Below, one piece after another: positions 6,081-50,500 of a stretch of 64,000 bases of DNA. The notes below the pieces were generated by a model. That model searched no databases, was not told the origin of the DNA, and worked only from the letters and a program-made list of their open reading frames with translations. The translations under genes were made by a program, and so were the position numbers. Every line of letters starts with the position of its first letter. Position 1 is the stretch's first letter. Source of the stretch: Styela clava (taxonomy: Eukaryota; Chordata; Ascidiacea; Stolidobranchia; Styelidae); NCBI RefSeq assembly GCF_964204865.1, contig NC_135259.1, positions 15,882,974-15,946,973 of the forward strand, read 5' to 3'.

Positions 6081-6668
6081 TATATGCAAAACTACAACAA
6101 TGAAACTTTGCATTGCCAAATGCGACCACGACTAATCCTTCAAAAACGTGTAATTAGAAATAATTCTCTCAAAAACAGCAACGTTTTTTTATGTTACAAA
6201 ATTGGGAGGGTGGAGACACTTCATAAAAGTAAATTTGATTTGCATAGGATTGATAATTGGTCATAAAATTGTTATATTTTCCGATATCATAATATTATAT
6301 ATACCATTCTCGAATTCCAGATGAAACAACTCGATAAAATTTCGGCATAACAATTATATCAGAATAAATTAAAAGTGAGAGTTGTCACTTGCATTGCAAA
6401 AGATTAAAAAGTTGACTTGACCTAATGGCCAATTGTTGCATGACAATTAATCTTTGCTATTTAGTATAAATTTGAGGCGCAAACAAACAAAATGTAAATG
6501 GTCATTCTTGCGTTTCTAAAAATACACATCTCCTGGGTAAATAGGAAGTCACAATTCATAGCAGTACAGAAAGATTGTTGCATTATGCCCACATACTGTG
6601 CACAGTATGACCACATGCTATTGCAACCAGAGTAAACCTACTATATAAAGAAATAACACAAACACAGG
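6081..6668. repeat. Direct repeat, right copy (about 0.6 kb)
   Basis: Partner of the repeat at 1-601, same orientation, about 6.1 kb apart. The right copy lacks a short stretch present in the left one (near 305-320) and has a few extra bases near 6440. The flanks beyond ACAAACACAG differ between copies, so the repeat boundary on that side is real. Confidence 0.8.
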
Positions 6669-19876: not shown

Positions 19877-20941
19877 TCAATATTCACTATCCCATTTATT
19901 TTTACCATCCTTCCACATTAAATTGATAAAATATTCGAGTGGTTCAGATTCATGCATTTCATGTTCAGAAGTTTGTTCTGATACACATGCATCATATCCA
20001 CATATTACTCTTAAATATACAAAACGGGCTAACACAGCGTAAAAAAGAAACTTTTTTTCATCATATGTGAGACTAAAATTTTTTTCAAAACCAGATAATG
20101 TAGTTTTAGCAGCATCATATGGATTTATATTAGGCGATGTCACAGTCGCATACATTGCACTCGCAATAGGAATTGCAGCTTCATATACATAATAACTAAT
20201 ACCCATGTCCGAAAAATCGATAATCCCTTTTACTAAATAGTTATCGACATCATTTTGCAGTTTTTTAAAAATGAAATTTTCAAGACACATATCGTTATGT
20301 ATAACCCCTTTTCTTATTTGGGAAAATTCATTTTTAATACTTGAATCCTTTAATTTTTGCATAACAATAGAACAAATGTTACGTACATTTTCATCATTTA
20401 CAATATTTAACCTCACATCTTCAATATGCATATTTTGTACAAGATAGTAATCATTCACACGTTTTAAAGCTGAAGGCGGGTCTTTTATTTTAAACAATTC
20501 AGCAGTCAGTTTTCCAGCACACAAACCTATTTCATGGCAAAAAGATAGAAATGATTCAGATTTAAATTTAAGGTTTTTGTATTCTAAACCAGTGACATAA
20601 GACATTAAAATTACTTTTCGAACTCCATTAGAGGTATCAATCTGACCAACATAACCCCCAGTTGTACAAGTAACTGGTTTAGGAATCTCAAATTGCAATT
20701 GAGGAATTTGTCTCAATACGTCCATGATAGCTTCAGTGAGTCTTTCTCTCTTTGAGTCATTGACATTAACTATCTTCAAGACATATTTGTCTCTATGTTC
20801 CGAATTGTGACTTAAATCAACGCATTCCAAGATATAGTTAAGGTCATCATATCCACTAATTAGTTCAACTGATAAAGCTTTATAATTATAAAAATCCAGT
20901 AATATTTTTGAGATATTTATATCAGTATTCTGCATATTCAA
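19877..20941 (-). CDS. HYKK: Hydroxylysine kinase homologue (APH-fold)
   Basis: A 354-residue uninterrupted reading frame. It matches the aminoglycoside-phosphotransferase-like kinase HYKK (AGPHD1), which phosphorylates 5-hydroxy-L-lysine with GTP in lysine breakdown. Visible landmarks are the glycine-loop equivalent YDDLNY (31-36, YDDQNF in the human enzyme) and YVLKI (53-57) with the nucleotide-binding lysine. The catalytic loop is HNDMCLEN (215-222), with Asp217 and Asn222 in the positions of the usual HGDLNDHN. The metal-binding segment is DFSD (242-245), followed by YYVYEAA as in the family. Length is close to the usual ~370 residues. The absence of introns is notable beside intron-rich neighbours and could mean a retrocopy, but the frame is intact. 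It is divergent with mago (start-to-start about 1.1 kb). Confidence 0.88.
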   Translation of the reverse strand: MNMQNTDINISKILLDFYNYKALSVELISGYDDLNYILECVDLSHNSEHRDKYVLKIVNVNDSKRERLTEAIMDVLRQIPQLQFEIPKPVTCTTGGYVGQIDTSNGVRKVILMSYVTGLEYKNLKFKSESFLSFCHEIGLCAGKLTAELFKIKDPPSALKRVNDYYLVQNMHIEDVRLNIVNDENVRNICSIVMQKLKDSSIKNEFSQIRKGVIHNDMCLENFIFKKLQNDVDNYLVKGIIDFSDMGISYYVYEAAIPIASAMYATVTSPNINPYDAAKTTLSGFEKNFSLTYDEKKFLFYAVLARFVYLRVICGYDACVSEQTSEHEMHESEPLEYFINLMWKDGKNKWDSEY

Positions 20942-22027
20942 CCTAATTTAACTAGAATCAATGATATAAAAAACAAGATGGTAATGTACAAGTATAATAT
21001 TCATGAAATTGGTTCAAGTACTAGACTACAATAGCGGTCACTGCTTAAATAATGTCCAAAAAAATAGGATTTTTCATGTTTTTTTTTAAATAAAAAGAAA
21101 GACTATATGGTGCAGAATGAAATTTTTGGCAGACGTGTTTAGTTGAAATCAAACCTACTCAATTTTCAACAAGCAATTTGTATTGCAATTATATTTAATC
21201 AGTCTGATGGAATTTGTATGTATTAAATAGTAACTGACAGACTGACCAAAACAACCAGCACAAAGACATTAGGCATCGATAAGATTTTCAGAATGATGTA
21301 AAGAATGTTACAGGATGTCGTTTGACCCAAATTTGCTGAGCTCTATATCACTATACAAGTGTGCAATCTATAACATTTATAATTTTAACATTCAATGTAA
21401 TAATGAAATGAATATTTGGTTGAGTAATTATTAGGCTTCTATGATTATTAGGCAAAAGATCTATCTCAAAAGATAAAACGACCTGGGACATGTTCCTAGA
21501 ATTGAATATATAAGGTCAAATAACTACTGAAATATTGGTATCTTAAAATCAGTGAAACGTAGTATACCCAATGCTAACATGCGCCGAACACCACGCACAA
21601 TTCCGACTAACCGCACAAAATTTAACAATCAGCAAAGTCAAATCAAGAAAGTGTCGCTATACTATACTGCTGTACTGTAATAGGAAACTAAAAACCATTC
21701 CGCGTTCAAGCGTTTAACTCCGCGACATGTTAGAAATAATACCCTAACCAAAAACACTAAATATTTGTAAAACCTAAATAATGAGTAAAATACCAAATCC
21801 TGTCAGCATTTATTAACCAAGAAATCGCCACGAAAACCCATGACGGCAACAAAATATTTTTCAACTCGCGAGCGCCAACTAATGGATTTATTTTTGAACT
21901 CATTATTTCAACGCTTCATTGAATACGATTAGTGCGACACCGCGTGTATTTTGAATTGCAGTGCTTCGCCATTTCGCATTTCAGCTTGTTGGAGCGTTTT
22001 TGTAAATTAGATAGCCTAGAGTCGAAA
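20942..22027. promoter_or_regulatory. Divergent intergenic region between HYKK and mago
   Basis: About 1.1 kb separates the start codons of the minus-strand HYKK and plus-strand mago genes, so it must contain both promoters and 5' untranslated sequence. I see no clear TATA box or other named element. The stretch from 21570 to 22027 is somewhat richer in CG dinucleotides than its surroundings, as expected near a housekeeping promoter. Confidence 0.4.
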
Positions 22028-23979: not shown

Positions 23980-25159
23980 TAGAGGTAAGATCGGGCTAAA
24001 AAATTCCAGCCCGACCCGACTCCGGCCCGTGGGTATTAAACCCGACTAATTAACTGGATTTGCAGGCCAGACCTGGGCCCGTGGGTAATAAAACCTGACC
24101 CGACCCGAGCCCGACTAATTAACTGGATTTGCAGGCCCGACCTGGGCCCGTGGGTAATAAAACCTGACCCGACCAGAGCCCGACTAATTAACTGGATTTG
24201 CAGGCCCGACCTGGGCCCGTGGGTAATAAAACCTGACCCGAGCCCGACTAATTAACTGGATTTGCAGGCCCGACCTGACCCTGGTCCGTGGGTATTAAAA
24301 CCCGACCCGGGCCCGTGGGTAATAAAACCTGACCCGACCCGAGCCCGACTAATTAACTGGATTTGCAGGCCCGACCTGGGCCCGTGGGTAATAAAACCTG
24401 ACCCGACCCTAGCCCGACTAATTAAATGGATTTGCAGGCCCGACCAGACTAACTAACAGGCTTTGCAGGCCCGACAAATTAACTGGATTCGCAGGCCCGA
24501 AATTTCATATTTTATTTAGGAGTTCTTCGAATTGTCATTGCAAGAGGTTAGTACAGTATTGGGGAATGCTGGGACATATTTCTTCTTTTGTGAGCTCTAT
24601 AATCTGCACATTCATTTGACAATGCGGGGCTAATAGATAGAGGGTAGCTAAAGGTTTTACTGGGCAAACTAAGAAATTCCCTAGCGACACCCATATTATC
24701 ATCAAGAGGCATTCAAAAACGTGTAAAATGTCCCGCTGCACTCCACTTGTGCGGCACATTAAATTAAACGAGGTATGCTGTTAAAAAGCAATGAATAAGC
24801 ATCATCATCCAAAGAACTACGAAACTTTAAATTTCGAAATTTAATATTTATGAAATCGGAACCACTCTGAAAAATAGTTTCTAATAAACATATATTTACT
24901 TATAAAAAATCCAGCGATATATAAGCCCGACCCGAACGTAATGATTGTCATTTCAGGCCCGACCCGAACCTAATGATTGACAAATCAGGCCCGACGCGAA
25001 CGCAATTATTGACTTTTCAGGCCCTACCCAACCTGAACGCAATGTTTGACATTTTAGGCCCGAACGTAATGATTAACAATATAGGCCCGACCCGTACGCA
25101 ATGCTTGATATTTCAGGCCCGACCCGAAATATCGGGTCGGGCTCCAGATCTTAGCTCTA
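23980..25159. mobile_element. Non-autonomous hAT-like transposon with GGCCCGAC subterminal arrays
   Basis: A perfect 8-bp duplication, CCTCAAAT, flanks the element (23972-23979 and 25160-25167). The terminal inverted repeats are TAGAGGTAAGATC and the complement of GATCTTAGCTCTA. The left third (about 24020-24500) is a tandem array of GC-rich units, roughly 60-70 bp, built on GGCCCGACCTGGGCCCGTGG. The right third (about 24925-25140) has shorter inverted units of AGGCCCGACCCGAACG. Such subterminal repeats are typical transposase-binding sites in hAT elements. The middle has no transposase frame. Confidence 0.92.
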
Positions 25160-35522: not shown

Positions 35523-38500
35523 CTGGATTGAAAAAAAGTAATTGCACAACGATAAGTATATATGAAGGAGTTATTTGATGTTGATGAAATTGATTAGGCA
35601 GAAATGACTAAGAACTAAAGAGCAATGCGCAGATATAGGCGCTCCAGACGTGTATGTATCGATATGTAGGTAACTAATTTTGTCCGCCTACTTTACATCA
35701 AGTTGTGTAAAGAGACTGAAACCTATGGGCAGAGGGTATATTCACTTGGCTAACACAAACAGTCTCCGAACTCGTTATAAAACTAAAATAAGGAAAATCA
35801 AATAAAATTAGGGCCCAACCTGACACACATACTACAAGGGTACTCAAGATATACTATACATATACATGGGTCATTGTGCATAAGCATATTGCCGAAAATC
35901 AATATATTGCTTGTTCCTAAAACCATCCCAATTTAGGGTAACGAAAGCAAAATTTCATCAAAATTTCACCCTCACTATTGGGATATCAACATCTGAAAAT
36001 AGGCATCGGCAATCTTTTAAAAGCGATAAAAAACTAAATGTTTATAACACTAGTTCGTACCTTTATCATAGACTTTACTTTCGTAGGTTCCACCAAAACA
36101 TTCTTCTGCCAGGCTTTGTTCATTCATATTAAATTCTTCCACTGTTATATCATTGAATTTAAACCATTTTCCTCGCCACGGATTACTCATTTGTGTTCCC
36201 CTGATAAAAAAGATTATCAAGTGGAACGCTATTTCAAATAGTATTAAATTTAAAAACAAATTGGCAACGAAGGCTCATGATTTTAAGTTCATTCTCAATG
36301 TCAAATAGCTTGCCGAGCTTGCATTAAATCAGGTAGTGTCAAACTGTCGAATATACATGAATAATTGTTCCATAGCAGTTGTTTCCAAACTGAGGCCAGA
36401 TTACAGCCCACGTAACGATTTGATATGACCCGCCGAACTTGAGACAAATATTAGTTTAACAATTTTTGTTTTCATTTTCGTTCCAGATACCACCCACTGT
36501 TATGTTATTATCACAGTTTAAATCCAAGTATATTCGTAACCAGTGTTCCCTCTAAAGTGTGCGCGTGTGCGCGCGTACACAGCTCTCAGAGGCTGCGCAC
36601 ACGCATAAATTTACTGCGCACAGACGTATTTCGATGTAATGTAACAATGTTCTCGGTTGGCAGGTTGAGAAAGTTTGTTGTTGGCCCACTTATTACCAAA
36701 ATTTCTTCATTGGTTTTTGCACAAATATTAGTCATTTCCAAAAAGTGCGCACACACCAAAATTTCTGCGCACACATTCTACAAAAAATTAGAGGGAACAT
36801 TGTTCGTAACACTTCTCCACGATCACTTCTAATTTTGGCCCTCGTTCAATCAACTTTGGGAACCACTGCTCTAAAGGTATGATACATGTAATACTGGGGA
36901 GGTGTCCGGGCACTTGGATCATTGACTCTGAACACCATTTATCAAAACCTTGATGAATTTCATTCAAACTAAATGAACATTCAAAAAAATCAGCACATCC
37001 AATACCTTCTATCTTTGATGAATGAATAGTAATGACCAGCACTTGCTTGACCGCTGTGAACAACGATCCCAACTAACTCGTACATGTTACAGTCAGATGT
37101 GTGGCGTGACCGACCTTAAAAGTAATATGCGAAGTTTAAAAATTTCAATAAAAAAATGATTTTTGTACCCAAATGAAGAAAACATACGGATAAAAAAGAT
37201 CTTTTTACACATGCAACAAACTAATATTTCTAAGCAATTCATAAACCGAAATGTATCAACCCACTGAAGTTATTGTACACTGGACATGCAAGACTAAGTA
37301 AAAATCTTTCTGTCACCTCATATAACTATGTCCTAGTTATTTAAATGTATTTACAGGAGAACAATCGTGAGAAACTTTATTTAATTTAAAATTAAATACT
37401 GGAAGGCAGTAGTTCTATTGGACTGGTAATCGAAAGTACTACTTCCTTATCACCAAGCAAAAATTTGCATCCATTTTTATTTTGAAACGCAAAGTAAATT
37501 ATCTTGAAATTTAAAAAAACATGATAATTTGACGACATAGATATCAAAGTTTAATAAAGTCATTCATTCGTCTTACCAGATTCTTTTTGAGAAATTCCCT
37601 CCTCAGTGTACGGTGACATATCGAGAGTGAGAGGAAATTTGAAATCGTGGTCAAACTTGAGTGACCTGCTACTTTCCCAATCGTAAACAAATCTCTTCAA
37701 TTGCATGATTAGTATAGGAGGAAGAGTTTTAATGCAGGTACGCTTCAGTGCAGTTCTCTGGTGAACAAAAATTATAAAAAAAAATATAAGAAATTATATT
37801 TTTTTAATAAAGAACAAGAAAGCAATGCTTGAATATGTAAACAAGTCTAATTTCAAAAACCTATTCCAACCAATTAAATTAGATAGCAAAGTTTTTCAGA
37901 ATTTTTTTTAAATACCTAAGTACTTTATTATTTCCTAAATTAATAAACATGAAATTAAAATTCTATCTTAGCGTAATCTGTTAAGTTTCGTGAAATGATT
38001 GATTTTGCAAAATTCCCCTTATTGTAACAAATTTATTTGGTAGTATTACCAATACAACATTTTTTTTTAAATTTTAATTATACATTTTTAAATGCTTATC
38101 CTAGTTTTAAAATTTCCAAAAAAAAAAAAATTTATTTCCCTAATAACTTTTCAGAAACATATTACTCGACGAATATTCACAAAAGTTAAAAATTTTGTTT
38201 GCGAAACTTTTAATTCCGTTTACTTACATTCTAATGTAGGATGTGTTAATGTTCAACATTTTAAATAGGCCAAATTGTTATAGATGCAAATAAAAAAATT
38301 ATGTTACAATTCAACATATTATTCAAATTTTTCAATTTCGCTTGTTTTCAGGTATTTCAGTGGTCCGAAATATAAAGAGGCGTTGAAGGCACTCGACGTC
38401 ACCCCGTCTCTGAAAAAACACACAAAATGTGCCTTGGCCTGTTTGTAGCTTGCCATATCCTAATACGCAGCGGGAGAGTTGGCTACTTTTCTTGTATGAA

Positions 38501-41500
38501 GGTAGGCGAGCTCAAACAGGCCAGGGAATATGAAGACGAAGGGTTGATCCAAATCGTAGTGAAGGAGCAAAAAATTAAGGACGAGATAGGTTTTCTCACA
38601 ATGTCACGAGAAGACTACCAAATGTTTTTAAAGGTAAGAAAACTTCATAAATGCATTCGCTTCCATTGGACTATAATTTTATATGTACATACAACGTAAA
38701 ATGACAGGATATATTCAATCATGGAACTCTACAAAGTATACCCTAATATTCAAATATATGTAAAATACTGTCGATACTACAAAATATATTTAACTATCGA
38801 TAATCATTGCTATTTTTAGCTGGTCAACACGTTTAAAAATGTAAACGAAAGAGACGACACGGAATACGCATTATCAACCCCTTCCAAGGAAAAAATGCGT
38901 GTGGACAAATGCGTAAGATCCTCACTGGCGAAAGTATTTGGTGAAAATATTAGCATTACTTTGATGAGGAAGATGACGGAAACCCTGGCCTCAAGTATGC
39001 CAGAACACCAGCAGAGGGATGTGGCCAGGGCTACGGGCCACTCATTAGAAGTAGCCCGTAAAAATTATAATTTACTGCACAAAGGGCAAACAGATCCGGT
39101 ATTTCCCGCCCGTCTGATAAACTCTCGACCTCCGGAATTTCCGAAACACACCTACCATCACCCTCAAAATACCAAACGCCCAAAAAAAGAAAAGCTCGTC
39201 CAGATTTTGTATCTCCGAGGACAAAAGCAATTAGAGTTACAGTTCCTCGCAAGACCTTAATATCCTCAAGTGATAGGATGTGGTTGTATTTCCACGAAGG
39301 AGTAAAAGGATTTCTTAAAGGTGAAGAATCTCTTTCTAGATCGCAATTACAAGAGATTGTTAAAGAGAGACCAAATTTGGCCACATTTAATATAGATAAA
39401 CTGATGGAAATGCTAAAAACCTTAAAAAGAAAAATGAAACATTTTTAACAATCTCTCGTAATTTGCAAAAAATCTAGAAAGAGGTTTTTTTGCCATTTTT
39501 AAAAGTTTTAGCTTTTTTAAGACAGAGTTTATTGCGATGTGGGCCAATAACGGGCTTTTTACTCCAATAACTTTTTTTCAGCACAAGCAAATACAGCATT
39601 ATTTCAAACTTATATTAGCATTGAAATTCTGCATTCATTCGCATATTACACATGTTGATATCTTAAGTTGTTTCAAAGTTATACGCAAAAAGGTCTCTTT
39701 TTCAAACCAAACTGGTAGGACCAGAAATTTTGACAATTTGACATTTTCTGAACGGAAAATTCGACATACACCTATACACCAACACCACCACCTACAACTA
39801 TACACCAGCTACTGGAGACGAACAGCGAAAAGTCTCCGGCCCTAAGATACCGCCATCTTATAGCCATTAAATACTTCTGTAAATGGACGGTGTTTAATGG
39901 CTATACAGTAGATTTTGAGAAGATCCGTGATGGGATAGATTTGGCCCAAGCGTCTGCTAGCAGACAGAAGAAACAGAAAACATCCCTAAAAAACGTTACG
40001 GACCAGGCACGGATGGAGAAGCTATTGGGACCCGTCATTGAGTAAGTACTTTATTATTTCCTAAATTAATAAACATGAAATTCAAATTCTATCTTAGCCT
40101 AATCTGTTAAGTTTCGTGAAATGATTGATTTTGCAAAATTCCCCTTATTGTGACAAATTTATTTGGTAGTATTAACAATACAACATTTTTTTTAATTTTA
40201 ATTATACATTTTTAAATGCTTAACCTAGTTTAACAATTTCCAAAAAAAAAATAATTTATTTCCCAAATAACTTTTCAGAAACATATTACTCGACGAATAT
40301 TCACAAAAGTTAAAAATTTTGTTTGCGAAACTTTTAATTCCGTTTACTTACATTCTAATGTAGGATGTGTTAATGTTCAACATTTTAAATAGGCCAAATT
40401 GTTATAGATGCAAATAAAAAAATTATGTTACAATTCAACATATTATTCAAATTTTTCAATTTCGCTTGTTTTCAGGTATTTCAGTGGTCCGAAATATAAA
40501 GAGGCGTTGAAGGCACTCGACGTCACCCCGTCTCTGAAAAAACACACAAAACGTGCCTTGGCCTGTTTGTAGCTTGCCATATCCTAATACGCGGCGGGAG
40601 AGTTGGCTACTTTTCTTGTATGAAGGTAGGCGAGCTCAAACAGGCCAGGGAATATGAAGACGAAGGGTTAATCCAAATCGTAGTGGAGCAAAAAATTAAG
40701 GACGAGATAGGTTTTCTCACAATGTCACGAGAAGACTACCAAATGTTTTTAAAGGGGAAGAAAACTTCATAAATGCATTCGCTTCCATTGGACTATAATT
40801 TTATATGTACATACAACGTAAAATAACAGGATATATTCAATCATGGAACTCTACAAAGTATACCCTAATATTCAAATATATGTAAAATACTGTCGATACT
40901 ACAAAATATATTTAACTATCGATAATCATTTCTATTTTCATTTTTAGCTGGTCAACACGTTTAAAAATGTAAACGAAAGAGAAGACACAGAATACGCATT
41001 ATCAACCCCTTCCAAGGAAAAAATGCGTGTGGACAAATGCGTAAGATCCTCACTGGCGAAAGTATTTGGTGAAAATATTAGCATTACTTTGATGAGGAAG
41101 ATGACGGAAACCCTGGCCTCAAGTATGCCAGAACACCAGCAGAGGGATGTGGCCAGGGCTATGGGCCACTCATTTTAAGTAGCCCGTAAAAATCATAATT
41201 TACTGCACAAAGGGCAAACAGATCCGGTATTTCCCGCCCGTCTGATAAACCCTCGACCTCCGGAATTTCCGAAACACACCTACCATCACCCTCAAAATAC
41301 CAAACGCCCAAAAAAAGAAAAGCTCGTCCAGATTTTGTATCTCCGAGGACAAAAGCAATTAGAGCTACAGTTCCTCGCAAGACCTTAATATCCTCAAGTG
41401 ATAGGATGTGGTTGTATTTCCACGAAGGAGTAAAAGGATTTCTTAAAGGTGAAGAATCTCTTTCTAGATCGCAATTACAAGAGATTGTTAAAGAGAGACC

Positions 41501-44500
41501 AAATTTGGCCACATTTAATATAGATATACTGATGGAAATGCTAAAAACCTTAAAAAGAAAAATGAAACATTTTTAACAATCTCTTGTAACTTGCAAAAAA
41601 TCTAGAAAGAGGTTTTTCGCCATTTTTAAAAGTTTTAGCTTTTTTAAGACAGAGTTTTTTGCGATGTGGGCCAATAACGGGCTTTTTCCTCCAATAACTT
41701 TTTTTCAGCACAAGCAAATACAGCATTATTTCAAACTTATATTAGCATTGAAAATCTGCATTCATTGGCATATTACATATGTCGATATCTTAAGTTGTTT
41801 CAAAGTTATACGCAAAAAGGTCTCTTTTTCAAACCAAACTGGAAGGACCAGAAATTTTGACAATTTGACATTTTCTGAACGGAAAATTCGACATTTCGAC
41901 ATTATTTGGACATTATTACAAGTCTGTCGCAATGTCGATAATTCCGATGTCGCACTGTCAATATTTCAATCAGGAATTATCGAAAAATCGACAATGCGAC
42001 CCCTTTTTGTCGCACTGTCGACAATTCAACAACTAAAAATCGACATTGCGACAAGCTATCTAAGCTAATCAACAGTGCGACATTCTTGGACAGAAATTTT
42101 GACAATTCGACATAATTAGACCAGAAATTTCGACATTGTTACAAGTCTGTCGCAATGTCGAAAAATTCCGAAGTTACTTCGCATTTGGGAATATATTTAG
42201 TTTTAGAAGGTAAAGTATTTTTTTCCTCCACACGATAGTGAAAATTTTATTATTATTGAAAGAGAGGCTTCTTACGAACCCATAGACCCCAATTTGAACA
42301 CTTATGAAGTCATTTTCAAAAAGTTATGGCTTTTTTAAGACAGAATTTTTTTGCGAAAGCGCCAATAACGGGCTTAGGACCTGTTGATACCTCTTAATTC
42401 TACAGCGTTTGTGACACTATTTAATTTATAAAACATGTTAATTCATTTCAGATATATTGTATCGTACGAAGTAAGTAATTCAAAACAATATTAAAAATGT
42501 CAAGACAATATCAAATGGATTCTGATGAAGAACCCCAAATTATTCATTCGGGGGAAGAGGAGCTGTCAACCTCTGAAAGCGAACTAGAAACAAGAAAGAG
42601 CCAGCAAAAGGAAACGGAAGCGGAAACGGCACCTTTGGTGGTACGGGTAGAGGAAGGTGAAGAAGAAACCGAAGAAGGAGAAGGAGAAAGAAACTTGATA
42701 TTTGTTTTTTTCCCGGCTGTGGCAAAATACTTCGGCGGCAGAAACGAAGACATTTAATGCAAGCACACAATATCCCTGAGTCCGAAGTCGAAAGGTATAT
42801 AATAATTTTATTTTATTTAATATTGCAGTAAGGATTCTTTGTCTTCGTTCTGGACGATTATTATTGCTGAAATCCTTTTTATTGCTTCTTGGCTATTCAA
42901 ATTTCGTTTCCTGACTATTATTATTATTGCTTCCTGTAATTCTGTTTCGTATGCAAATATTTACATCATATTTATTTTATTCAATTCTACAGATATCTTT
43001 ACCGTCAAACCGGTAAAATAGATTATAAAAAATATACCAGATGCACCATCTGTCATAAAGTTAACTTGCGAGCAACTTTGAGACGACATCTGAAGACCGT
43101 CCATAAATTACGAGGAGAGGAGTTGGACGGAACATTAAGAAATATGACGCGAGAGTCCATATACTATGATGTGAGTATACATTTTCATTATTTCATAAGC
43201 ACATTCATACATACATACACACATCCCTATCGTACAAGAAACTAAATATTTTGATGTTACTTTCTTTTCAGGTACTTCAAAAGTATGAAGCGGCTCTTCA
43301 AAAAGGGGTTTTCAACCAAAAAGCAAAAGACGCAAAAACGGCAAAATACGCAGTGAACGAGCTTAAACTGTACAACTATACACCAGCTACTGGAGACGAA
43401 CAGCGAAAAGTCTCCGGCCCTAAGATACCGCCATTTTATAGCCATTAAACACTTCTGTAAATGGACGGTGTTTAATGGCTATACAGTAGCTGGTGTAGAT
43501 TTTGAGAAGATCCGTGATGGGATAGATTTGGCCCAAGCGTCTGCTAGCAGACAGAAGAAACAGAAAACATTCCTAAAAAACGTTACGGACCAGGCACGGA
43601 TGGAGAAGCTATTGGGACCCGTCATTGAGTAAGTACTTTATTATTTCCTAAATTAATAAACATGAAATTCAAATTCTATCTTAGCCTAATCTGTTAAGTT
43701 TCGTGAAATGATTGATTTTGCAAAATTCCCCTTATCGTGACAAATTTATTTGGTAGTATTAACAATACAACATTTTTTTTTTAATTTTAATTATACATTT
43801 TTAAATGCTTAACCTAGTTTTACAATTTCCAAAAAAAAAATAATTTATTTCCCAAATAACTTTTCAGAAACATATTACTCGACGAATATTCACAAAAGTT
43901 AAAAATTTTGTTTGCGAAACTTTTAATTCCGTTTACTTACATTCTAATGTAGGATGTGTTAATGTTCAACATTTTAAATAGGCCAAATTGTTATAGATGC
44001 AAATAAAGAAATTATGTTACAATTCAACATATCATTCAAATTTTTCAATTTCGATTGTTTTCAGGTATTTCAGTGGTCCGAAATATAAAGAGGCGTGTAT
44101 TTCAGTGGTCCGAAATATAAAGAGGCGTTGAATGCACTCGACGTCACCCCGTCTCTGAAAAAACACACAAAACGTGCCTTGGCCTGTTTGTAGCTTGCCA
44201 TATCCTAATACGCGGCGGGAGAGTTGGCTACTTTTCTTTTATGAAGGTAGGCGAGCTCAAACAGGCCAGGGAATATGAAGACGAAGGGTTGATCCAAATC
44301 GTAGTGGAGGAGCAAAAAATTAAGGACGAGATAGGTTTTCTCACAATGTCACGAGAAGACTACCAAATGTTTTTAAAGGTAAGAAAACTTCATAAATGCA
44401 TTCGCTTCCATTGGACTATAATTTTATATGTACATACAACGTAAAATAACAGGATATATTCAATCATGGAACTCTACAAAGTATACCCTAATATTCAAAT

Positions 44501-47500
44501 ATATGTAAAATACTGTCGATACTACAAAATATATTTAACTATCGATAATCATTTCTATTTTCATTTTTAGCTGGTCAACACGTTTAAAAATGTAAACGAA
44601 AGAGAAGACACGGAATACGCATTATCAACCCCTTCCAAGGAAAAAATGCGTGTGGACAAATGCGTAAGATCCTCACTGGCGAAAGTATTTGGTGAAAATA
44701 TAAGCATTACTTACAGTAGTTGGTGTAGATTTTGAGAAGATCCGTGATGGGATAGATTTGGCCCAAGCGTCTGCTAGCAGACAGAAGAAACAGAAAACAT
44801 CCCTAAAAAACGTTACGGACCAGGCACGGATGGAGAAGCTATTGGGACCCGTCATTGAGTACCGTAAATATTAAGTGATTTAGTGAGTTGTAAAAAAAAA
44901 ACAAGTATCCTAACAAAACTAACAACAATCTAGCAAAACTATCCATAATCCATGTACGCAATGGAAAAACTGAATTTATAATATTCCAAGCGATTCTGAT
45001 CAAATATATTCGGTTAAAAATCGTTGTTATTATTGGTCAGATTTTTATTTGAATCCTGAAGAAAAAGTGTACCTATGACAGCTCAACCTGGCTAACCATC
45101 TGGAATATTCTTGATTCAGAATTGGCTACCCCTTGTTATCCCCTGGGTGAGGCAATGGGTGTGGAGATTGAACCACCGACACCAACATAGATAGATAAAA
45201 CGTTCTAACCCAGGAGTGGGCAAGGTTTTCGGACCGAGGGCCAAAAATTTTGCCCATCCAGACAATATTTACAGTGTTACAAAAGCAAAAGTGGAAAACG
45301 ATAAGTCTCATGCTAAAACTCAATCGACCACTAGGCCACTGGACAAATATGGTAAAGGAAGTAGGTCTGGAGGATTTTTAGAGGTAACATCACTGATAGA
45401 AGGTTAGTTAAAGATTCAGTTTCTTAATTCATATAGTGTCATTACCTTTGCATTACATTTTTCACAGAAATAGGCATTATCTCCTTCTAATTTTTCACCA
45501 GCAACAAACTGATCAAGAGAATCCAATAAATTTCCACATTTCACAGGTAGATTTAAAGCAAAATACGGTTCTTCTCTTTCATATCTGAGGTGATTGAAAA
45601 GCATAATTAATACAAATGAAAAGCAAGTGCGTAAACCCCAAGTCAAGATTAGGGTCACAAAAGTCACTACAAGACGCCTCACTGTTGTTTCTAGCCGCAA
45701 GTCAAGTTCGATGGATATGGATTAACCAAATTACAAATAACACTGTCTGCTGTTACCAGTCATGCTATAGTATGCGAATAGTTACCCAGGATATCACTTC
45801 AGATTCATTGTGTAAAGTTTATTTGCCCTCAAGGCAGATACACATATACAGGTCCTTATCCAGGCCTGTCATAAACTAGAATGAACCATCACACCAAAGT
45901 AACACCCTCGCACGCACACATGTAAACAAGTAATAATTACTCAATAACAACAAGTAATGGCACAATGATTACAAGTGTCTGGTAAAGTAATCAGACCAAA
46001 ACATTCACACATTGCTTTGGATGGTAGATTAGAAGGAGACCGCAACGGATCACCAGTATTTGAAACACCTTCAATCATCAATTTTTTCACACATAATCAT
46101 CCCAACATGATTCAAATTCGCAAACCCGTATGTAGCAAGGATATTTGAAGTCCAACACATTCATGATATATTTCTAATCTAAGTTGTTTTCTCATTACCA
46201 GATCTATTCAAAGTAAACAGCTAACATGCTAATAATGCAATAACATATTTTTCAAAAATGTAAAGGGATAACACTCACTTATGGGGACAGCCTTCGCATA
46301 TTTTTTGGTCAGAAAATAATCCTTGAAGTGTTTTCTTAAACAAAGGTTCTTGATTTTTGCTCTGCAAAATATGATAATATGAAAGAATGACAAATAAAAC
46401 GAACAATACAAAGCAGTAAGCGGACAATACCATCATACCCAAAATAAAAACATCAGTTGAATCATTTAATCAGGTATTCCTGTACATCAATAACATAAAA
46501 TAACAAGATAGAGCCAATTTATTTGTCAGGTCATCGACAGTCGTCATGTAGCCCACCACCAATCAATTTTTGTTATGTTTAGCATGTTTACTCTGACCAA
46601 AACTATATACAAGTATCTGCTTAGTCATGAAAAAAGTCATATGACCTTTTTTAGTTTGACATAGCTTGCCCAATTTATTACATCCTACAAGAACAAATAC
46701 CGGGGGGGCTAACCATAGCTCAACAATTAGATCTAACTAGTACATCATTAGGCCAAGTCACTCACTGCTAGTCAACCAAGCAAACGAGAGGATTGTCATT
46801 TTACGATACTTTTCTTTTTGTTTTTTTGTTCAGCTAAGAAGAAAGTTATGGTTACTGAAAGACTACAACCATTCCTTTAATAAATTGTTTTGAATACAAC
46901 AATGACACAGTCATACTTAATGACTATCTTGTTAAAGCGACTCCAAAGTATATTTAATAAATGTCTTAATTATACAGCGAATAAATGTCCAAAGCAATAA
47001 CATAAGTAACACACACAGACATAAACACCACCAACCGAGCTGTGCTCCAGACTACTCAGTGCACATGGCCAAATCACCTTCACAGGTGGTTGGTCATGAT
47101 CAGTCACCTGAAACTGATGACATCAAAGGTCATGCTCAACCATCTGGGAAAATGCTAGTTGCCAGAAATACAGCTAACAATCTCCCCAATTTCCAATTTC
47201 AAATAAAAGTTTAACATAATGCATTTAACAGTTCGTGTGAAGATGCTCCTTTCTTAGTCAAACAATCTGCTAATTGTTGATCACTCGGAAGTTTCTTTAT
47301 GCAGGAGATTTGATGGGATGAAACCATTTCTTTTAAACCATAAATGTCAATCCTGAGACGTTTCTCTGATACAGCTTTTGTCGACTTGATTGCATCACAA
47401 AGGCTTTGACTATCAGTACAACATTCAATGCCAAATTTTTCTGGTTGAACTCTTCCAGTCGTTAGTTCAAGAGTACAACGCTGCTAATAACACCGCTGTA

Positions 47501-50500
47501 TCAACACCATCTGACATAGAGAGGGTTTCAGCAGAAAGTGTGCTTCTCACGACTCTTTTGATTCGCTTGGATTGCCAACATAAAGGTATTTTCCTGTTTC
47601 CACCACTCATGAATACAATATGGCCACCTTGCGTGCCTCCATCACACAAATTACCAAATGATGCATCGCTATAAACAAGAAACTTAACTTCATTGTCATG
47701 GAAAGCAGGAAATTTCAAAGTGACCTTTTGTGCTTTCAGTTGCTTGACAATTTTGTTAACTTCTATCACAGTTTTAACAGTGCAATTCTTTAAAGCAGAT
47801 GTGAGTGTAGATGATGCAAATGATACATCTGGCCGAGTTTGATTTGAGACCCACAGTATCTGGCCAAGTAAAGATCGAACTTTCAAGACATCAGCTTCGA
47901 TTAAAAGCTCACTTCCACTCTTAGTTTTCAATGAACGGATATCAATCGGAAGCAGTAAGTGTGATAAGTGTGATATCTTCCTTATCAGTCTTTAATTCAA
48001 GTCCTAAATATTTGAAACTTTCAGTATATTCCACTCCAACTTTGAACTGCTCTCTCAAACTCTTGATGAATTTGCCTTCGAATTCTTCCGAACCGCCCCA
48101 CAGAAAGTCGTCCACATGCAAAGCGATCACCCCTTTTAAACCATGATCGAAATAATAGAATAAAGCAGGATCCACTACAGAGATACGAGCACCTAATTTT
48201 AGAAGCGTTTCCTTAACACTTTCGTACCAATACATTGAAGCATCAGTAAGACCATATACGCATTTCTTCAATCGCCACACAGCATTTCGCTTCTGTATTT
48301 TCTGATCAGGTGGTTTGATAAAAATATCACGCTCGAGAGATTTTCCCTGCAAGAAGGCAGTTTTAATATCCATAGTTTTTGGCGACCATTTCTTTTGTGC
48401 AAGCAGTGCTAAAACAAGTCTGAGACTTTCTTTAGAACATGTTGGGGAATCTGTCTTCAATTCACTGAGACAATCTTCTTCAAAACCTCTAACTACTAGT
48501 CTAGCTTTTGGTTTTGGTCCATTGTCAGTCTTTTTTATTGAACACACCCATCTTGTACTTAACAACTTTTGGCCTTTACTTTCTTCCTCTGTGTAGACAT
48601 CATTTTGCTTCCAGCTGTGCAGTTCCTTCATCTTTGCTTCAAGAAAGAGGTCTTCGTTAATCAACATCACTTGATCAACAATTGGTATTTCTTCAGCTGG
48701 TAAATCATCCATAATAGATAGATTCTCAACAGTGTCAAGATCAATGGATGTCTTTGTGCCTTTTTCAGATGAAGGTTGCAAATACTCAATATTATACCAG
48801 CTACTGTACTTTCCTGTTGCTTTACCAGTCCGCCCAAGTACTTTTGCAACTTTTTTATTGCCAGTTACATCCTCTTTGAATTCTACTATTTGACCACGTT
48901 TAGGATCTCTCTTCACAACAGGTGAAGCCGAGAGTCCATCGTTATATTCTAACTTGTCCACTGCTGCAAGAACCAATTGTTTTCTTTTAAAGCAAGATTT
49001 GTTCCTTTGAGAAGTTTACACGCCAGTACAGTGTCCGGTAACTCCATGCCAAATTTTCTCATTTTGGTGTTCACTGTCAAATCTTGATAAGTAATCTCTG
49101 ATGTTTTCATTTTCCAGTCTTACTAAATTCTCAAATTCCGTGTATGTTTCATACGTTCTATCAGAAGTCTCTCTCTCAAAAACACCATCTAATTTTACAA
49201 GTAATGTTTGCATTCCATCATCTCTGTTCAATTCCTCAGAGCTTTTTTCTAGAGCAACTTCTCTAGCTTTTCCACATAAGCTCAATGTCACTGCTAAAGC
49301 TTGCTTTTTCTTGTCAAGGTCTGTAATTAATCTCCACATAGAGATCTCATTCTTCCATTGATCGTATGGCTTCTCTCCCGTCAACAAAGGAGGATTCTTG
49401 TATCCTTGAGAAGTCATTGCACATCCTCTGCTACCATTTGTTAAAGCGACTCCAAAGTATATTTAATAAATGTCTTAATTATACAGCGAATAAATGTCCA
49501 AAGCAATAACCAAAGTAACACATACAGACATAAACACCACCAACCGAGCTGTGCTCCAGACTACTCAGTGCACATGGCCAAATCACCTTCACAGGTGGTT
49601 GGTCATGATCAGTCACCTGAAACTGATGACATCAAAGGTCATGCTCAACCATCTGGGAAAATGCTAGTTGCCAGAAATACAGCTAACAATCTTAGGCATA
49701 AAATTTTGTCATAAAAACTGGTGCTCCAAAAGTATGTGCACCAATATGGAGGTAACTAATTTTGTTCGCCTACTTTACATTAAGTTGTGTAAAGGGACGA
49801 AAGCCTATGGGCAGGAGGTATATCCACAGACAGTCCCCAAACTCGAAATAGAATTAAAATAAGGAAAACAGGAATGAAATTATGGCCTAACCCTAACCTG
49901 GTACACACACTACGGGAGTACTCCAAAAATCTGCTCAAAGCACTGCCCCACGCACTCACTCAAAAGTAAAAAGAGACTCATTTTTGAGGAGATGCTGACA
50001 CAAGATATTTTCCTCCTATCTCAAACTTACCTTTAAATATTCATCAACTTGGTCTGATAAATCAGTAAAGAACATGAATGCATCTTGTTGCTCTCTGACG
50101 TTAATTGCTTGTCCCCAAAGTTTAAAATTTTTCCAAAATGTTTCAGGAATAAAATATTGTAGTCTGGATTCTGATAGATGACCAAATATACGTTGCAATT
50201 GATATAATATAGTAGATTCCTCATTTGCATCTCCGAATTCAGTGCAAATTAGAGGCTGTCAATAAATACATAAAAAATTTCATCACGAATCAAAAATGTG
50301 TCTCAATGACTCAATGACAACAGGTAAAATGTTTCGTTACAGGGATGGCCAATACCGAATAATTCACTATTTCGAAGACATTCGAAATTATTCTTTTTGA
50401 ATATGAAATTTCGAAGAAATTATTATTATCTGTATGAAGGAATTTGCATACAATACAACAATGGAATAACTGTTATCTACAAGCTGGCTACCAGACATTT

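Follow-up and report, generated by a model that had tools for sequence, protein, structure and literature searches.

We analysed a 64,000-nucleotide stretch of the genome of the ascidian Styela clava (contig NC_135259.1, positions 15,882,974 to 15,946,973; hereafter, the window), which contains at 37917–44859 an array of three head-to-tail units, each holding parts of an intron-bearing gene with features of tyrosine recombinases (Table 1). The sequence and coordinates of the array match an earlier note on this DNA, and both the sequence and the whole-unit alignment bore out its description of three units with the given lengths and ends and with TACC on both outer sides, as well as its statement that units 1 and 3 are internally deleted. 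In ungapped columns, units 1 and 2 are identical at 2068 of 2120 positions (97.6%), units 1 and 3 at 1158 of 1192 (97.2%), and units 2 and 3 at 1169 of 1193 (98.0%).

Table 1. Features of the three-unit array, its flanks and the gene and repeat segments within it (window coordinates).
Feature	Coordinates	Strand	Description	Basis
Left TACC flank repeat	37913..37916	none		read in the sequence; 4-bp chance figure
Unit 1	37917..40042 (2126 bp)	+	intron remainder, 3' exons, start of repeat X, deletion with filler, end of exon 3	alignment and BLAST
Exon 4, unit 1	38352..38633	+	starts at 40476 in unit 2 and 44065 in unit 3; frameshift in all units	
Exon 5, unit 1	38820..39448	+	recombinase-like motif TxxR-24-GHS-9-Y, then frame broken	spacing from a C14-based string
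Unit 2	40043..43629 (3587 bp)	+	longest copy	unit alignment and BLAST on the window
Repeat X segments A (41621–41684) and t2	41621..41821	+	abut the recombinase-like copy at its truncated 3' end	genome matches
Repeat X inner sub-repeats m	41882..42174	+	rich in GTCGCAATGTCGA and its complement	BLAST and X loci
Repeat X segments t1 and A' (42311–42375)	42171..42375	+	abut the gene on its 5' side at ~42376	
Candidate circle-closure joint	42174..42175	none	m (..TTCCGAAGT) fused to t1 (TACTTCGC..), ~1 bp microhomology	
Exon 1	42498..42794	+	ATG, acidic N-terminus, zinc-finger-like motif 1 (by eye), frame broken	translations and relative P0001; limits by reading
Exon 2	42993..43170	+	zinc-finger-like motif 2 (by eye)	translations and relatives
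Exon 3	43272..43628	+	ends ...GTCATTGA; donor GT split by the boundary 43629/43630	translations and P0001
Intron 3	43629..44064	+	GTAAGT...TTTTCAG, crosses the unit boundary	donor and acceptor compared with C14, C6 and C3
Unit 3	43630..44859 (1230 bp)	+	intron remainder, 32-bp duplication, exon 4, part of exon 5, deletion, end of exon 3	
Right TACC flank repeat	44860..44863	none		read in the sequence; 4-bp chance figure

The gene consists of a 5' part (42498–43628), with an acidic N-terminus, two zinc-finger-like motifs recognized by eye and a further stretch, and a 3' part, located at the unit starts, which encompasses a recombinase-like domain with the arrangement R..102..TxxR..24..H..9..Y, in a string made up mainly of letters from the copy on contig C14 (see below). 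This spacing is compatible with that of Cryptons and tyrosine recombinases, but T stands where the HxxR motif of tyrosine recombinases has H. Searches of the gene product against Pfam, PHROG and PDB gave no match better than E 0.087, and AlphaFold models were uninformative (predicted local distance difference test, pLDDT, ~40). The identification as a tyrosine recombinase put forward in the earlier note thus fits the motif spacing and drew no support from profile or structure searches; both this label and "Crypton-like" are used here at the motif level. Three protein searches, all of which require shared 5-residue words and one of which scored the best 8000 candidates only, yielded no relatives outside S. 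clava, and 22 and 51 pattern matches in viral and prokaryotic contigs, respectively, among which records near the window's genome may be absent, included none confirmed as a relative. Within S. clava, the protein P0004 matches the 5' exons of unit 2, and the annotated protein P0001 aligns with the copy on contig C6 in four stretches (98, 97, 90 and 96% identity) and has a frayed end in common with it, residues 51–111 of P0001 having no counterpart in the C6 copy.

The octamer TAAGTACT is found three times in the window, each time at a unit start, compared with 2.4 occurrences expected by chance, so that by itself it is not significant; the full-length repeats are. GTCATTGAG is located at the three unit ends and twice on the minus strand, at 50302–50318. 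The outer edges read ...AAATACC|TAAG on the left and GAG|TACCGTAAA... on the right, and the 4-bp match between the flanks has a chance of ~0.006 in the window. TACC is present only at the outer flanks, the internal boundaries reading TAAG; TA is found at every boundary, that is, four times for three units. Both outer edges lie in the same phase of the unit, save for a 2-bp TA identity on the right. Identical unit ends with nothing between them, which the earlier note had emphasized, are automatic for any tandem array phased by its outer edges. The reported lack of inverted repeats held for lengths of at least 40 bp, none being detected in 37000–46000 by a repeat finder (seed 15, minimum 40 bp), but BLAST revealed an imperfect one of ~50 bp (81%) at the 3' end of the gene (41445–41492 versus 41572–41624).

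In a search of the genome, we obtained nine listed matches, four of them the array's own and five at four other loci; as the search scored the best candidates only, these counts are lower bounds. Three of the loci, C14 (2.8177–2.8225 Mb), C6 (24.2736–24.2765 Mb) and C3 (24.8519–24.8543 Mb, minus strand), carry equivalents of exon 3, starting from window positions 43311, 43258 and 42846, respectively, that directly adjoin the equivalents of 40043–41621 with no break; C14 and C6 also carry pieces of exon 1 upstream, with the order unchanged. Exon 3 of the array is followed by GTAAGTA, and the boundary drawn in the earlier note falls between the G and the T of this splice donor. The donor GTCATYGAG|TAAGTA is kept in all three copies, and the acceptor ...TTTTCAG is found in the array, C6 and C3, with TTTTTATG at that place on C14. 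P0001 is likewise continuous over the boundary (...GRVIE-YFSGPKY...). The fourth locus, C13:22.385–22.389 Mb (the C13:22.39 Mb copy), shows the same gene order with a deletion spanning the boundary point. Because the C14, C6 and C3 copies are collinear across GAG|TAAG, with a normal splice donor there, TAAGTACT and GTCATTGAG are not element ends, as the earlier note had taken them to be, and this interpretation was dropped once the collinear copies turned up. Copies whose ends differ had been named in the earlier note as grounds for refuting its reading, and the collinear copies are of that kind. Given that these copies read through the boundary, the internal unit boundaries are native sequence, not joints, and, judging by segment order, the array units are circular permutations of the gene.

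The frameshift in exon 4 is common to all three units and the C13:22.39 Mb copy and is missing from the C14 and C6 copies, the C3 copy having been left out of this comparison as its row was cut at a different anchor. The gene was therefore broken before the array formed, and recombinase may have been supplied in trans by another copy. A further S. clava protein, P0003 (LOC120338454), has an array-type C-terminus that differs from units 1 and 2, unit 3 being devoid of most of that part; a different assembly or haplotype may accordingly hold an alternative version of the array.

Between the 3' and 5' ends of the gene, positions 41621–42375 belong to a repeat family, denoted X, with at least 143 matches in the genome, a figure that counts those within the array and comes from scoring 40 of 73 first-look candidates. 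The segments follow the order t1-A-t2 at five other t1/A/t2 loci and in both arms of the C13:22.39 Mb locus, and m comes after t2 at four of these five loci (L024, L025, L027 and L028, not L026). In the array, the order is A-t2-m-t1-A', and the gene lies between A' and A. The fusion of m to t1 was found at none of the seven other listed t1 matches (the five loci and the two C13:22.39 Mb arms) and at none of the eight m ends sampled from four loci. Located at 42174/42175, this fusion is a candidate for circle closure by end joining inside X. An X sub-repeat is also found in satellite-like arrays with a spacing near 1.45 kb. The GTCGCAATGTCGA inverted repeats at 41.9–42.2 kb were considered as a recombinase attachment site and dropped, being sub-repeats of this widespread repeat/satellite family.

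Two side observations concern the genomic distribution of X. At C13:22385206–22389403 (L016, L017), a fragment of the recombinase-like gene is enclosed by 1350-bp inverted repeats that are 97.9% identical and hold repeat X; we did not adopt these as true element ends, as they contain X together with other DNA and enclose only a fragment of the gene. The X copies L024, L026 and L028 (C10:2571–5306; C6:24292057–24292401) are located within ~6 kb of contig ends (the start of C10 and the end of C6 at 24297679). X is perhaps a subtelomeric repeat, with copies also in contig interiors (C5, C2).

The units differ from each other in a star pattern. Across ~642 columns compared with the C13:22.39 Mb copy, units 1, 2 and 3 have 7, 3 and 5 private differences, respectively, no difference is common to exactly two units, and 6 differences separate all three units from the C13:22.39 Mb copy; in this region, that copy differs from each unit by 1.4–2.0% and the units from one another by 1.2–2.0%. 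In a second, shorter region (43371–43629), 3 sites separate all three units from the C13:22.39 Mb copy, with no other pattern, and this copy is farther away, at 2.2–3.5% versus 0–1.4% among the units. We read this star pattern as suggestive of near-simultaneous copying. Unit 1 has since sustained a net internal deletion of ~1.45 kb, with filler DNA at the junction that holds a copy of a 10-mer found nearby, and unit 3 one of ~2.39 kb, whose junction, read by eye, shows an overlap of at most ~1 bp, along with a 32-bp tandem duplication at 44065–44128. The deletions, filler and duplication look like ordinary end joining after the array had formed, and the filler looks templated, as might be expected of polymerase-theta-type end joining.

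We consider it likely that the array is a reinserted extrachromosomal circle that was multimerized, opened in the GT of an intron donor and inserted with a 4-bp duplication. As a circle predicts, the order of segments is circularly permuted relative to the other copies, and a linearized circle starts and stops at the same point, which would explain why both outer edges have equal phase, whereas an arbitrary piece of an array rarely would. Under this scenario, the starting point would have been a decayed, intron-bearing, Crypton-like gene copy nested in repeat X, in the order t1-A'-gene-A-t2-m. A segment of at least 3587 bp, the length of unit 2 and the minimum size of the circle, would have been circularized, most simply by end joining of m to t1, with the fusion marking the closure. 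The circle would then have multimerized, or monomers would have been added successively by homologous recombination; it would have been opened between the two bases of the intron 3 donor GT and integrated at a TACC site, producing the 4-bp duplication, and internal DNA would later have been lost from units 1 and 3. At no step would the encoded recombinase have been needed, and the common ancestor of the units was already frameshifted. A single multimer insertion with a 4-bp duplication fits better than repeated crossovers because TACC is present at the outer sides and not between units.

Several observations weigh against reinsertion of such a circle. Short m-like stretches lie 0.5–0.6 kb upstream of t1 at two of the five X loci (L024, L026), and the start of C10 holds copies of X spaced ~2.4 kb from each other; the m-t1 fusion could accordingly be a deletion inside repeated X, the circle having been closed by recombination between X copies. 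As the m-like stretches and the repetition on C10 allow this deletion alternative, we lowered our confidence in the circle slightly, to a level that is still fairly high. The fusion is kept in unit 2 only, no source locus of the circle was found, and this reading does not account for the A/A' duplication around the gene (66 bp, 85%). Private changes are unevenly spread over the units (13, 5 and 19 of 1187 columns in the three-unit alignment). Finally, a break inside a splice donor is a low-probability event, with ~4 donors in 3587 bp, which we treat as a coincidence.

Among the alternatives to a reinserted circle, the tandem array might have arisen at the source locus, a whole-period chunk then having moved here or been left by two-sided deletions, with no circle at insertion. 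The satellite-like arrays of the X sub-repeat and the repetition of X at the C10 start make tandem copying plausible, and we slightly raised our estimate for this scenario because the m-t1 fusion has a deletion alternative. We nevertheless regard it as unlikely: both edges would have to hit the same phase of the 3587-bp period by chance, which a linearized circle gives automatically, and no other array of the gene is found among the nine matches listed, a lower bound.

Much less probable, in our assessment, is the mechanism at the center of the earlier note, in which a tyrosine recombinase inserts circles successively at its own crossover point, with TAAGTACT and GTCATTGAG as natural ends; the crossover would then be TA and the target ACC-TA-CCG. 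The TA at each boundary, the motif spacing of the gene and the lack of long inverted repeats in the array would all agree with such a crossover, and the flanks alone may also reflect one into ACC-TA-CCG. However, the proposed point lies within the gene, at a splice donor across which the C14, C6 and C3 copies continue, all units share a frameshift, and unit 2 holds a different fusion that fits circle closure. Moreover, one would expect a Crypton-type crossover to leave an identical short repeat at each joint, and TACC is missing from the internal boundaries. The collinear copies have largely refuted this explanation: from the earlier proposal of circle-based integration, the circle is retained, on the grounds of permuted order, equal-phase edges and the m-t1 fusion, whereas the recombinase crossover is unlikely. 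The empty allele is expected to read AAATACCGTAAATATT under TACC duplication and AAATACCTACCGTAAA under TA crossover, with TACCTACC expected in the empty site if the recombinase crossover were correct.

An assembly artefact, with repeats collapsed or falsely joined, is hardly credible: the units differ by 2–3% and have distinct deletions, filler and a 32-bp duplication, and P0003, under another gene number, has the array-type C-terminus, so that this version is probably not limited to a single assembly of the locus. To the possibility that the element's recombinase recombines at its own intron donor, such that a single integrated permuted copy would have its gene split, with the splice site and the complete gene restored only in circles or tandem arrays, we give very little weight; if true, crossover at the intron donor would be a self-limiting switch.

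The colour-sidedness KIT alleles of cattle (Durkin et al. 2012) are reportedly reinserted extrachromosomal circular DNA comprising a large segment of a host gene. The present array resembles that case in that the inserted segment is permuted, one pair of breakpoints stemming from closure and a second from opening; it differs in involving a dead recombinase-like element inside a repeat, a trimer and a 4-bp flank repeat. Durkin et al. 2012 is cited in two articles (PMC10462705, PMC12235870), the first of which reports that mutants of Arabidopsis contain circles derived from transposable elements, truncated and chimeric ones among them. The array also recalls tandem satellites of transposon origin such as Tetris of Drosophila virilis (PMC4079207), in which transposon-derived DNA is reportedly arranged head to tail, but, unlike satellites of that type, it comprises only three units, is in phase at its two edges and is bordered by a 4-bp repeat.

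Likeness to Cryptons extends to a recombinase-like motif order, R...xxR...H...Y, near the C-terminus and to the lack of long inverted repeats in the array. In contrast to Cryptons, the array has edges that do not coincide with the ends of other copies and lacks a short repeat common to all joints; the gene gave no profile match to any known family, and two zinc-finger-like motifs, recognized by eye, precede the recombinase part. A 4–6 bp direct repeat at both ends and at circle junctions, a trait of fungal and stramenopile Cryptons, was not found in the array, where TACC is confined to the outer flanks. According to Kojima and Jurka 2011 (PMC3212892), animal Cryptons showed no terminal repeats, so the missing short repeat counts against a crossover here and not against family membership; in the same paper, circular intermediates of Cryptons are a proposal by analogy from Goodwin et al. 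Nothing on the array appeared among the open-access papers listed for Cryptons with tandem and circular forms or for Cryptons with tunicates. The array offers a clean tunicate case in which an assembly shows both where a circle opened, within an intron, and where it may have closed, within a repeat, and it warns against taking the identical unit ends of a tandem array for transposon termini. It can no longer be cited in support of animal Cryptons integrating by means of their recombinase.

Several other features were identified in the window. A Copia-type retrotransposon on the minus strand (46929–49692), encoding an RVT_2 domain (E 1.5e-32), is flanked by 255-bp direct repeats (46929–47183 and 49438–49692) that are 98.8% identical and, at only ~2.8 kb, is probably internally deleted. 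CCCGACC-rich tandem arrays with periods such as 69 and 165 bp occupy 24041–25128, in the 2-kb bin with the highest GC content in the window. A direct repeat of ~600 bp (90% identity) is found at 1–600 and 6081–6667, 5.5 kb apart, and a single-exon open frame of 356 codons on the minus strand (19877–20947) encodes an APH-type phosphotransferase domain (E 2.5e-8).

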